From Paludibacter sp. (GTDB taxonomy: Bacteria; Bacteroidota; Bacteroidia; Bacteroidales; Paludibacteraceae): 60,151 nucleotides of DNA. Location: NCBI GenBank assembly GCA_019163375.1, contig JAFLKK010000011.1:1-60151 (forward strand), written 5' to 3'. Positions 10,839 through 14,245 of the stretch are shown piece by piece. Position 1 is the first letter of the stretch. Each line of letters begins with the position of its first letter. A program made the position numbers and the translations under genes. Under the pieces are notes generated by a model that ran no database searches, was not told the DNA's origin, and was given only the letters and a program-made list of their open reading frames with translations.

Positions 10839-12740
10839 ATGAGCAATTACAACATTTTGCAATTGAATGCGAAAGAACTGTCTGAACTAAAAGACATCGC
10901 AACAGAATTAGGTCTGAAAGTATCTAATTCAACGAAAAAAGAATCATTGGTCTATGATATTCTAGACCAACAAGCCGTTGTCAATGCACAGCGAAAAACA
11001 ATCTCAAACGAAAATCAGGAAATTGACCGCAAAAAACGGTTACGCGTACCTGTAAAGAAAAACGCAGAACAGAAAGTGTTTACCACACCGGCAAATGCTT
11101 CACAACCCAACGAAAAACCGGCGCAAAAACCGGCTGCTAACGAGCAAGCCGAACCTGTAAAAGTGGTAAAACAATTTGCTAAGCCAATTATCAAAACTCC
11201 GGAAGTGCAAACCGAAGGCAGTGCTAATCCGGTAGTTGAAGCAGCAACTGCAGAAGCTAAACCGGCAAAAAAGCAAAACAAACCAAAACCGGCAAAAGCT
11301 CCAAAACCTGCTATTAAGGTTGAAACTGAGAAAAAAGAGCCGGAAGTTATTGCCGCTCCAACCAAAGTTTTTGTATTGGAAGACCGTACCGCTTTTGACA
11401 CTCAAATTGAAGAAACCCTTTTCGTTCCTGAAATCGCGTTAGAAAATGTGATTGAAGGCGTAATTGAAAACGCGATTGAAAGTGCTAAGACAAAAATTGA
11501 GCTTCCTGAATTGAAGCACAACAAACCTGCCAACAGCGGAAACAACGCCGGAAACGGCAATGGTAACGGCAACCGCACCAAGTTCACTCAAAGACCCGAA
11601 AAAGCCGAAAAACAATTCGATTTTGATGGTATCCTGGAAGGAACCGGAACATTAGAAATGATGGCCGATGGCTACGGTTTCTTACGTTCAGCCGACTACA
11701 ACTACCTTGCTTCGCCAGACGATATTTATGTATCGCAATCGCAAATCAAACTATTCGGTTTAAAAACCGGCGACACAGTAAAAGGTGCTATTCGTCCTCC
11801 AAAAGAAGGTGAAAAATACTTCCCACTTATTAAAGTTGCCCAAATCAATGGCCGTTCGCCGGAATATGTTCGCGACCGCGTACCTTTTGAACACCTCACT
11901 CCTCTTTTCCCTGATACCAAATTTAATTTGTGTAGTGGCAAAAACGACACTCTTTCAGCCCGTATGGTAGATTTATTCTCACCAATCGGTAAGGGTCAAC
12001 GTGGATTGATTGTAGCACAACCAAAAACAGGTAAAACCGTTTTATTAAAAGATATTGCCAACGCTATTGCGGCCAACCATCCTGAAGTATACATGATTGT
12101 ATTGCTTATCGATGAGCGTCCTGAAGAGGTTACCGACATGGCTCGTAGCGTACGTGCCGAAGTTGTTTCTTCAACTTTCGACGAACCGGCAGAACGTCAC
12201 GTAAAAGTGGCCAGTATGGTTCACGAAAAAGCAAAACGCATGGTAGAGTGTGGACAAGATGTAGTGATCCTGTTGGATTCAATTACACGTTTGGCCCGTG
12301 CTTATAATACTGTATCTCCTGCTTCCGGTAAAATTCTTTCGGGTGGTGTTGATGCCAATGCATTGCACAAACCAAAACGTTTCTTTGGTGCAGCACGTAA
12401 CATCGAAAATGGCGGTAGCTTGACTATTATTGCTACTGCATTGACCGAAACAGGTTCTAAAATGGACGAAGTAATTTTCGAAGAGTTCAAGGGAACCGGT
12501 AACATGGAACTTCAACTCGACCGCAAATTATCAAACAAACGTATTTTCCCGGCCGTAGACATTATGGCGTCAAGTACCCGTCGCGACGATTTATTGCTCG
12601 ACAAAGATACCTTGAACCGCATGTGGATTCTGCGTCGTCACTTGGCTGACATGAATTCTATGGAAGCCATGGAATTTTTGAAAGACCGTTTGGAACGTAC
12701 TGAAAACAATGATGAGTTTCTTGTTTCAATGAACGGGTAA
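10839..12740 (+). CDS. rho: Transcription termination factor Rho with long disordered insertion
   Basis: Hexameric RNA helicase that ends transcription. The 633 residues comprise a Rho N-terminal helical domain (about 4-48), a low-complexity Lys/Pro/Ala/Glu- and Asn/Gly-rich insertion (about 52-258), the cold-shock-like RNA-binding domain (about 262-335) and the ATPase core. Walker A is QPKTGKT at 394-400, followed by [10 protein letters not shown] near 427 and the Q-loop region. E. coli Rho has 419 residues, so the excess is almost wholly the insertion. Such insertions are known in Bacteroides Rho, where the disordered segment has been linked to phase separation. The start was chosen because the helical domain begins immediately after it. 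Confidence 0.97.
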
Positions 12741-12760
12741 CCCATTTTTTCAAATACACA

Positions 12761-12804
12761 AAAAAGGTAGAGACGCGCGGTTGTGCATCTCTACCTTTTT
12801 TTTT
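12761..12804 (+). terminator. Terminator of rho
   Basis: GGTAGAGA (12766-12773) pairs with TCTCTACC (12788-12795), extended by an A-run/T-run and an inner GC pair, and followed by at least nine T. It lies just after the rho stop. Confidence 0.88.
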
Positions 12805-12850
12805 ATCAATAAAACGAGTGTATGTATATTGATTGAGATCCAACATTTTC

Positions 12851-13170
12851 ACAATACATCCTATACAATTTGTAGAAACCCAAATTGAGCATCATTCAAC
12901 GCTATACAATTTGTAGAACGCTAAACTTGCATCATTCTTGCTTGTACAATTTGTAGAAGGCTGAAGAATGCATGATTCTTGTCTGTACAATTTGTAGAAG
13001 CTTGAAATGAGCAATATTCAGGTCTGTACAATTTGTACAGACCTGAAGTGAGCATCAAACAACTCTACAAAATTTTTAGAAGCCATAAACAACATGATTC
13101 AGCTCTATAAAATTTTTAGAAGGCTCAAATGAGCTTGATTCAACGCTATAAAAATTTTACAGCATCAAAA
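12851..13170. repeat. Array of eight tandem imperfect palindromes, 39-41 bp period
   Basis: A core resembling TACAATTTGTAGAAG recurs with first bases at 12864, 12905, 12945, 12986, 13027, 13066, 13106 and 13147, so steps are 41, 40, 41, 41, 39, 40 and 41. Each core is an inverted repeat (TACAA...TTGTA, drifting to TATAAAATTTTTA in the last three units). The flanks ATTCAgcc and ggcTGAAt extend the symmetry to most of the unit. Between palindromes a GCATcATT-like spacer recurs. Unit 5 is a perfect 31-nt palindrome (13017-13047). No ORF crosses it. It lies between the rho terminator and the fabG promoter. Function unknown: phased protein sites or a string of RNA hairpins are both possible. Confidence 0.88.
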
Positions 13171-13275
13171 TCAACATTTACTCCTGTTGCATAAAAAACA
13201 TTGAACTAAAATAGCAAGCCATTTTTAGTCCCAAATCTGCTTTTTCTGCACAAAAGCACCCGATTCATGCAAGTT

Positions 13276-13308
13276 TTTGAACGATATAGGAAAAAAATTG
13301 TATCTTTG
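13276..13308 (+). promoter_or_regulatory. fabG promoter
   Basis: TTTG (13276-13279) and TATCTTTG (13301-13308) with a 21-bp gap match the Bacteroides -33/-7 pair well. The leader to fabG would be about 185 nt. Confidence 0.7.
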
Positions 13309-13386
13309 CAGCCGAAAATTATAAGATTTTGAATTATAATCCCGTCGACAACAAACAAACTGACACAAGCAAGTTGGGGGTTTTGA

Positions 13387-13502
13387 ATGACATTAATAAA
13401 AAAGCTTACATGAAACAAGCATAAAGACAGATGTTCACCAAGAACTATGTTCATTGCGGGTTTCGTGCGACAACTAACTCAAAAATAAAAATTAGCGCAT
13501 GA
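13387..13502 (+). other. Chain of three tiny ORFs in the fabG leader
   Basis: ORF 1 (13387-13413) codes for MTLIKKLT. Its stop overlaps the start of ORF 2 (13410-13424, MKQA) as ATGA. ORF 3 (13431-13502) codes for 23 residues beginning MFTKNYVHCG, and its TGA overlaps the fabG ATG as ATGA (13499-13502). The overlaps suggest translational coupling but could be chance in AT-rich DNA. Confidence 0.35.
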
Positions 13503-14245
13503 AATTATTAGAAGGAAAAGTAGCTATCGTAACCGGTGCTGCTCGCGGAATTGGAAAAGCTATCGCCTTGAAATTGGCTAGCGAAGGTGCAAATATTGCA
13601 TTTACCGATTTGAATATCGACGAAAATGCATTGGCAACCGAAAAAGAAATTGAAGCATTTGGCGTAAAAGCAAAAGGATACGCTTCGAACGCTGCTAACT
13701 TCGACGAAACGCACACTGTTGTTGCTGAAATTTTGAAAGATTTTGGTCGTATCGACGTATTGGTAAACAATGCCGGTATTACAAAAGACGGTTTAATGAT
13801 GCGTATGACAGAAGGACAATGGGATGCAGTTATCAATGTAAACCTGAAATCTGCTTTCAACTTTATCCACGCTTGTACTCCTATCATGATGAAACAAAAA
13901 TCAGGTAGCATCATTAACATGAGCTCTGTGGTTGGTGTTTCGGGTAATGCCGGACAAGCAAACTACTCTGCGTCAAAAGCAGGTATGATTGGTTTGGCTA
14001 AATCGGTAGCTAAAGAGTTAGGTTCACGCGGTATCCGTGCTAACGCTATTGCTCCGGGCTTTATCGAAACTGAAATGACACATGCACTTACCGAAGAACA
14101 ACGCGCAAAATGGAACGAAGTTATTCCAATGCGTCGTGGTGGAAAACCTGAAGAAGTGGCTAACGTAACCTTGTTCCTTGCTTCTGATTTATCAAGCTAT
14201 GTAAGCGGACAAGTAATTGCAGTTTGTGGTGGAATGAACACCTAA
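13499..14245 (+). CDS. fabG: 3-oxoacyl-[acyl-carrier-protein] reductase
   Basis: A short-chain dehydrogenase that reduces 3-oxoacyl-ACP with NADPH in fatty-acid elongation, in the cytoplasm. Its 248 residues are the usual size. The cofactor loop TGAARGIG is at 12-19, NNAG at 90-93, and the catalytic tetrad N115, S143, Y156 and K160 is intact. The C-terminal 'GQVIAVCGGMNT' matches FabG, where most members read VDGGM. Other SDR substrates cannot be excluded from sequence alone. It stands alone between a strong promoter and a strong terminator. Confidence 0.92.
   Translation: MKLLEGKVAIVTGAARGIGKAIALKLASEGANIAFTDLNIDENALATEKEIEAFGVKAKGYASNAANFDETHTVVAEILKDFGRIDVLVNNAGITKDGLMMRMTEGQWDAVINVNLKSAFNFIHACTPIMMKQKSGSIINMSSVVGVSGNAGQANYSASKAGMIGLAKSVAKELGSRGIRANAIAPGFIETEMTHALTEEQRAKWNEVIPMRRGGKPEEVANVTLFLASDLSSYVSGQVIAVCGGMNT

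Follow-up and report, generated by a model that had tools for sequence, protein, structure and literature searches.

Phased operator arrays and iterons, with their repeat-binding proteins, place dyad sites at whole helical turns in an autoregulatory position. The arrays upstream of DUF6261 genes, to which we relate the locus studied here, differ from these in that they swap sequence between loci while keeping a 41/42-bp step, and in that the binder that we propose, DUF6261 itself, has no known DNA-binding fold. A second likeness is with REP/BIME repeats and their RAYT genes (REPtrons) in which, in the portions of the literature drawn on here, a gene adjoins palindromic repeats of its own, copies of the repeat are dispersed elsewhere and repeat families are gene-specific. 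Unlike RAYTs, DUF6261 (PF19775) is predicted to be all-helical and is not a Y1 transposase, and its arrays are regular 41/42-bp tandem rows in few copies. The excerpted text of PMC3733652 lists Bacteroidetes for CGTC repeats, not for GTAG repeats, and gives a range of 20 to thousands of REP copies per genome. Type III toxin-antitoxin systems (ToxIN), as outlined in part of PMC8860590, have a promoter followed by some 3-6 tandem repeats and then one gene. The DUF6261 loci differ in that array and gene are not separated by a terminator, the protein matches no toxin family, folding has no strand bias and orphan arrays occur without such a gene. Finally, the abstract of PMC4679880 describes TAACTGA direct repeats of Beggiatoaceae, Cyanobacteria and Bacteroidetes, intergenic, tandem and of unknown binder, which precede genes in some Bacteroidetes; those are fixed-sequence heptamers, not 41/42-bp palindromes, and the abstract names no linked protein family.

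The DNA analysed here (the window) is a stretch of 60,151 nucleotides from Paludibacter sp., contig JAFLKK010000011.1, with a row of eight palindromes between rho and fabG. Judging from sequence, we lean slightly towards seeing this row as an orphan from a family of phased arrays, made of dyads and belonging to DUF6261, in which the rows would be platforms for their cognate protein. The preliminary description knew of no named element with this layout, which holds within the open PMC subset: there we found no description of the pairing of DUF6261 with arrays, and the one paper that named DUF6261 was PMC10376253. Since it falls outside the known systems tested, we regard the combination of DUF6261 and phased dyad arrays as categorically new, less so if DUF6261 is an ordinary operator-binding protein.

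The array between rho and fabG

Pfam confirmed both flanking genes. The features of the region are as follows.

10839..12740, + strand: rho (context; Pfam Rho_RNA_bind, ATP-synt_ab, Rho_N)
12760..12801, + strand: rho terminator-like hairpin, 17-nt arms, T-run (context; inverted-repeat search)
12861..13165, no strand: orphan array, eight dyad units, step 39-41 bp (direct reading, TRF, permutation test)
12864..12874, no strand: dyad core 1, TACAATTTGTA (direct reading)
12905..12915, no strand: dyad core 2, TACAATTTGTA (direct reading)
12945..12955, no strand: dyad core 3, TACAATTTGTA (direct reading)
12986..12996, no strand: dyad core 4, TACAATTTGTA (direct reading)
13017..13047, no strand: unit 5, palindrome with two 15-nt arms, 100% complementary, core TACAATTTGTA at 13027-13037 (inverted-repeat search)
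13066..13078, no strand: dyad core 6, changed, TACAAAATTTTTA (direct reading)
13106..13118, no strand: dyad core 7, changed, TATAAAATTTTTA (direct reading)
13147..13159, no strand: dyad core 8, changed, TATAAAAATTTTA (direct reading)
13301..13308, + strand: TATCTTTG, presumed -7 element of the fabG promoter (motif match)
13499..14245, + strand: fabG-type short-chain dehydrogenase (context; Pfam adh_short_C2)

Direct reading found the eight cores at the positions first claimed for them (12864, 12905, 12945, 12986, 13027, 13066, 13106 and 13147), with core-to-core steps of 41, 40, 41, 41, 39, 40 and 41 bp. The array has the top TRF score of the whole window (175, for 12861-13150, period 41, 7.1 copies). 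Cores 1-5 are exactly TACAATTTGTA and cores 6-8 are AT-changed. The symmetry is most complete in unit 5, a 31-bp palindrome whose sole imperfection is its central base, and the array as a whole is more self-complementary than its own column-permuted versions (z 4.9, matched by 0/60). The complementary ATTCAgc/gcTGAAT arms reported earlier are present and imperfect: units 1-4 are unpaired six steps from the centre, and at some positions farther out. As had been stated, the array carries no ORF (no listed one of at least 100 aa overlaps it) and is unlike a CRISPR, a candidate that we rejected because inter-core sequence is related between units and the flanking genes are rho and fabG. An Rfam RNA was rejected as well: at gathering score Rfam 15 gave no match at the array, its sole match in the window being a tRNA at 1-54.

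The -7 consensus of Bacteroidota promoters is TAnnTTTG. TATCTTTG, about 135 bp beyond the end of the array, is the only + strand occurrence within 12741-13498, so that the + strand has none from 12741 up to the fabG promoter; a similar motif precedes fabG in at least three relatives (L007, L008, L023). The - strand of 12741-13498 has one, at 13480, more than 300 bp from the array.

The preliminary description proposed aligning the region after rho in related genomes. Rho loci were fetched for 30 of 58 matched genomes: our own, 27 with sequence after rho and two with less than 100 bp of it (L028, L029). All 27 relatives with sequence there lack a 40-42-bp array, so that the array is lineage-specific. 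The repeat scan of these relatives showed a two-copy 43-bp duplication in L015. By eye, what follows rho in L006, L009-L015, L021 and L022 looks like the coding sequence of a related small protein that may have Ig-like repeats, and not like fabG.

Related arrays and the DUF6261 family

A search of the genome for the same unit, also proposed at the outset, found related arrays on two other contigs. The window array is 77% identical, on the opposite strand, to an array on contig C6 of the same genome (G000:C6:105740-105920), which precedes a DUF6261 (PF19775) gene by 81 bp and has pirin, DUF6261 and HEPN genes as neighbours. A third array, at C1:404331-404510, has the same core as the window array and different inter-core sequence. 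The window array and C1:404331 are thus the two unlinked relatives that share the dyad TTCTACAAWTTGTAGAA with the array of the C6 DUF6261 gene. The same pattern recurs twice: a linked array on C7 has unlinked relatives at C8:148991-149201 and C5:139405-139545, and the linked array at C1:140475 has them at C10:46338-46715 and C4:334353-334440. The genome, which has four DUF6261 genes, therefore holds nine arrays in three sets, each of one DUF6261-linked array and two orphans, and no orphan is near any of the four genes. The orphan copies, 77-86% identical, lie beside unrelated genes, in which a reading of the neighbours revealed no shared theme. Frames of 74-156 aa cross four of these orphan arrays and were taken for chance frames in repeats. 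Another AT-rich row of tandem palindromes in this genome, ATGTATCTATACAAATTAT..., of short step, lies at L054:1480-1680 (G000:C4:46706-46868).

These sets bear on another account of the array, in which a palindrome that arose by chance between rho and fabG was duplicated locally and neutrally. The preliminary description took absence from related genomes as a sign of such a duplication, and the relatives do lack an array at this place; the drift of cores 6-8 is also in keeping with it. Neutrality does not follow, because arrays of the same kind adjoin a specific gene family elsewhere. With the window array being one of nine in three DUF6261-linked sets, and with the 41/42-bp rule given below, we rejected local neutral duplication, which we now find scarcely credible.

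Among 48 genomes of the genus, the exact core pair occurs only in our own, at three loci. A core-pair pattern scan of GTDB genomes returned 25 stretches, and both the C6 array and that of L057, from Prolixibacteraceae, lie directly upstream of DUF6261/PF19775 genes whose proteins are 39% identical. Of 60 genomes searched, our own among them, 25 have DUF6261, and many of these have numerous copies. Going by source name, the culturable Prolixibacter denitrificans and Parabacteroides sp. FAFU027 have members as well. We read 105 of 106 DUF6261 places, the one dropped being an 88-aa frame below the cut-off. TRF arrays with a period of 37-46 lie within 700 bp upstream at 59/105 of these places and downstream at 8/105 (66 loci in total); at 53/105 the array is within 300 bp upstream, with a median of 102 bp to the start codon. 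The linked arrays have about 2-8 units each. Their period is 41 in 31, 42 in 32, 40 in one and 43-44 in three, so that 63/67 have one of two values despite differing sequences. Among the 39 loci without a TRF array, seven have less than 200 bp of upstream sequence; of the remaining 32, half (16) have their best lag at 41/42 with a value of at least 0.48, a cut chosen after the values were known (in 800 random windows, 95% are at or below 0.45 and 99% at or below 0.54). In four genomes of other groups, picked for holding a core array, 9/11 DUF6261 loci have a 41/42-bp array. As a control, 400 kb of the complete relative G016 (20 x 20 kb, away from DUF6261 loci) contained two arrays, one of which precedes an HTH_18 gene.

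Could the arrays, or cassettes of array and gene, be REP-like repeats that are selfish or mobilised, with DUF6261 as a mobiliser's partner or passenger and orphans as non-autonomous copies without function between rho and fabG? The dispersal of orphans beside unrelated genes would fit, as would the patchy, multi-copy distribution of DUF6261 and, in genome G033, two array-plus-gene copies in differing surroundings (L135 and L136, described below) that show no homology in the 700 bp downstream. Moreover, among the scanned downstream neighbours of DUF6261, Y1 (IS200/RAYT-type) transposases outnumber every other family (7/64), to be set against 31 matches in the whole of seven genomes. The scan covered 64 of the 91 downstream neighbours found, most of them on the same strand, and left out 65 upstream ones; by clustering and by eye, the loci with a Y1 neighbour are L097, L098, L140, L141, L159, L125 and L179. 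Against mobility, 25/30 Y1 loci are without an array in the 36-47 period range, and the three with multi-unit 40-42-bp arrays are explained by DUF6261 (L229, L254) or HTH_18 (L230) genes. Copies are few, two orphans per linked array in our genome. The two DUF6261 proteins scanned matched PF19775 and no transposase, nuclease or toxin family, and NCBIfam gave no match in six. Mobility alone also leaves unexplained the fixed step in unrelated sequences and the dyads kept with new inter-core sequence, at C1:404331 and in two Prolixibacteraceae orphans (L064, L075) whose core is that of a linked array in the orphan's own genome and whose inter-core sequence differs. We therefore consider this reading unlikely.

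Membership of REP/RAYT proper was rejected on three counts. The immediate neighbours of the window array and of the C6 array include no Y1 gene. The window array and the other C6-type dyads have no unpaired GTAG or CGTC foot, GTAG/CTAC lying inside their palindrome. And copies are too few, the core pair being at three loci and each other linked array having two orphans. The complete relative G016 has one orphan relative for its ten linked arrays. That orphan (L276, G016:C1:1690709-1690815) precedes a gene that may be nifH, judging by its first residues.

Symmetry, strand and transcription

The preliminary description inferred selection on the symmetry and on the step of four helical turns. The family supports this through its periods and a set-wide test of palindromy; the window locus by itself does not. 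At least 70% complementarity between arms was found in 36/61 array rows, compared with 4.7 +- 1.8 (maximum 10) in 30 column-permuted sets, the axis being chosen without the innermost positions. The 61 rows omit arrays whose period is 43-44 or whose distance upstream exceeds 300 bp, and count L094 twice. Array by array, palindromy is weak (22/68 rows, the window array included, are below p 0.05; within +-20 bp, 21/67 arrays beat all 60 permutations), and our conclusion relies on the set-wide test. Across 14 arrays, dyad pair 3 is C-G, A-T or T-A and pair 4 is A-T or G-C, so that both sides change. Related dyads have 91/112 Watson-Crick cells where the null is 67 +- 3.4. This count and the pairs just given lean to symmetry in that centres were picked for palindromy, arrays are related, and the centres of L104 and L075 look misplaced. 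The parity of the centre goes with the period: 12 odd centres are at 41 bp and one at 42, and the even ones are six and 16 (Fisher p 0.0003, with many of the arrays related).

Alternatively, linked arrays might be transcribed as strings of hairpins that bind or restrain DUF6261, in the manner of a type III antitoxin, orphans then being RNA sources or relics. The sequence of promoter, tandem repeats and gene fits many linked loci, many dyads have a 4-nt unpaired centre, and the sense strand folds with a mean z of -3.2. The antisense strand folds equally well or better (mean -55.3 against -51.8 kcal/mol for sense; z -3.4), the sense strand folding better in 24/61 rows, and counts of G-U against A-C show no strand preference (61 vs 56 cells; 19 vs 15 columns). 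Equal folding of both strands is what a dyad acting at the level of DNA predicts, and strand bias thus lends no support to the hairpin alternative raised in the preliminary description.

Exact TAnnTTTG is found 5' of linked arrays 42 times forward and 16 times reverse, compared with 11 and 7 between array and gene, an excess which means that transcription may run through many of the linked arrays; when one mismatch is allowed the strand bias disappears. The window array has no such motif ahead of it on the + strand, and the one on the - strand is distant. Terminator-like hairpins between array and gene were seen at 2/53 loci in sense and 2/53 in antisense, compared with 20/53 after the stop codon, and at 7/53 inside arrays. 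The terminator counts, the lack of a strand bias and the absence of a toxin family match led us to reject membership of the type III toxin-antitoxin systems. A further point against RNA comes from a second family described below, whose four arrays all have the promoter motif between array and gene, by eye. Altogether, we find a role as RNA quite improbable.

Proteins and their dyads

The more alike two DUF6261 proteins are, the more alike their dyads tend to be, though not always. Between genomes, arrays match (at least 13/15 bases) in 0.6% of pairs with less than 20% protein identity, in less than 1% below 25%, in 3-5% at 25-50%, in 19% at 50-60% and in 44% above 60% (32 pairs). The Mantel correlation between proteins and arrays is small (r 0.075) and was reached by 0/500 permutations. 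Matches also cross families: the C6 dyad of our genome has 14/15 bases in common with those of L212 and L217 (Prolixibacteraceae) at 38-40% protein identity, and those of L104, L129 and L141 (Paludibacter) have 13-15 in common with L219 at 29-32%. In the three same-genome pairs with more than 60% protein identity, array sharing was not beyond chance. A strict one-to-one rule of protein and array is disfavoured by two genomes: in that of L072 the array of the single DUF6261 gene is unlike that of L072, and the Prevotella array L061 resembles, by eye, none of its genome's three linked arrays.

One of the three same-genome pairs is telling, that of the two cassettes of G033 (L135 at C10, L136 at C15), which are homologous across the gene and some 470 bp before it, with no homology in the 700 bp downstream. 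Their proteins are equal at 246/252 residues, and the six differences are at 172, 174, 183, 187, 189 and 192; 17 of the 28 nucleotide differences between the genes fall at 510-585. By our own arithmetic, the chance that six randomly placed changes all lie within a stretch of 21 residues is about 2 in 100,000. Upstream, the two cassettes are 76% alike across 470 bp. In the alignment, read by eye, one cassette has the dyad TTGCGGCGNTGCCGCAAG and the other a dyad like TTTCGGCCGGGACGRAAGC in all recognisable units, and much inter-dyad sequence is kept while the dyads differ. Six clustered residue changes, together with dyads changed in all units, suggest that local protein change accompanied dyad change, in what is one event. 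Residues 172-192 did not stand out when 203 pairs were scanned in windows (partial r there between about -0.2 and 0.2).

The protein itself gives few clues. No recognised DNA-binding domain was found in two DUF6261 proteins by Pfam or in six by NCBIfam, no informative PDB match was obtained, and fold searches of a DUF6261 model gave only generic helical matches. The median pI is 6.2 and the predicted structure all-helical. One of 12 DUF6261 proteins has a weak match to the PADLOC model PD-Lambda-5_A (E 2.9e-4).

A recognised DNA-binding domain does occur in a second array-linked family, a 140-aa HTH_18 (AraC-type) protein. Periodic sequence of 41/42 bp lies immediately upstream of the TATTTTTG promoter motif in 4/4 close homologues, of which L256 and L257 are the independent loci, the other two having led to the family; seven weak matches were left out.

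L255:1193-1381 (G000:C2), L256, L257 and L264: HTH_18 loci, promoter motif between array and gene (by eye)

Arrays of the same period upstream of this unrelated family and at other genes might indicate operators of another protein, such as a global regulator or a nucleoid protein, with DUF6261 genes as targets and not as the source. A single binder would not explain why sequence varies among the linked arrays within a genome and tends to track the protein beside each, and we give this possibility little credence.

We return to DUF6261 as the owner of the arrays. The DNA-site reading draws on the dyads, the lack of strand preference, the four-turn step, the co-divergence, the L135/L136 switch, the orphans that keep their cores and the arrays of the same kind before the HTH_18 family. 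Each DUF6261 protein would bind its own dyads as a dimer, and residues around 172-192 (L135 numbering) may read the dyad. A step of four helical turns would place the dimers on one face of the DNA, where they could stack or bridge. The linked array would then serve autoregulation, and orphan arrays might be further landing places of the same protein, for bridging or for the control of neighbours such as fabG. What speaks against DNA sites is the lack of a known DNA-binding fold and the exact promoter motifs commoner 5' of linked arrays. Against platforms stand the small Mantel r, the negative family-wide segment scan that leaves L135/L136 standing alone, the unrelated genes beside orphans, and the single orphan relative for ten linked arrays in G016.

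More generally, the odds seem even that Bacteroidota have a class of protein and repeat in which DUF6261, and perhaps the small HTH_18 family, own fast-changing sets of four-turn dyads with master and satellite arrays. Protein and dyad would switch together through a short segment under fixed geometry, and several mutually private sets would coexist in a genome. Fixed geometry with free sequence, several sets per genome and satellites at unrelated genes would set such a class apart from REP/RAYT, type III toxin-antitoxin systems and CRISPR. An uncharacterised family, DUF6261, gains a strong and testable partner in its own phased DNA array, and L135/L136, which differ by six residues and one dyad, are a natural experiment on the switching of specificity. 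Should binding be confirmed, many natural protein-DNA pairs become available, as does a handle on the role of arrays in Bacteroidota chromosomes or in gene control.

Other proteins may own similar arrays. A DUF6261 match was absent in 12/16 genomes checked among those of the pattern scan, including those of L069, L059 and L078. The arrays read in such genomes have other flanks and were not counted as part of the family. Tandem palindromes of about 42-45 bp were seen in L069, L059, L062, L071, L078 and L061, from other Bacteroidota and another bacterium. In the cyanobacterium Plectonema radiosum (L081:4930-5318), dense GAGACGCGAAATTTCGCGTCTC-type palindromes have TACAAWTTGTA between them.
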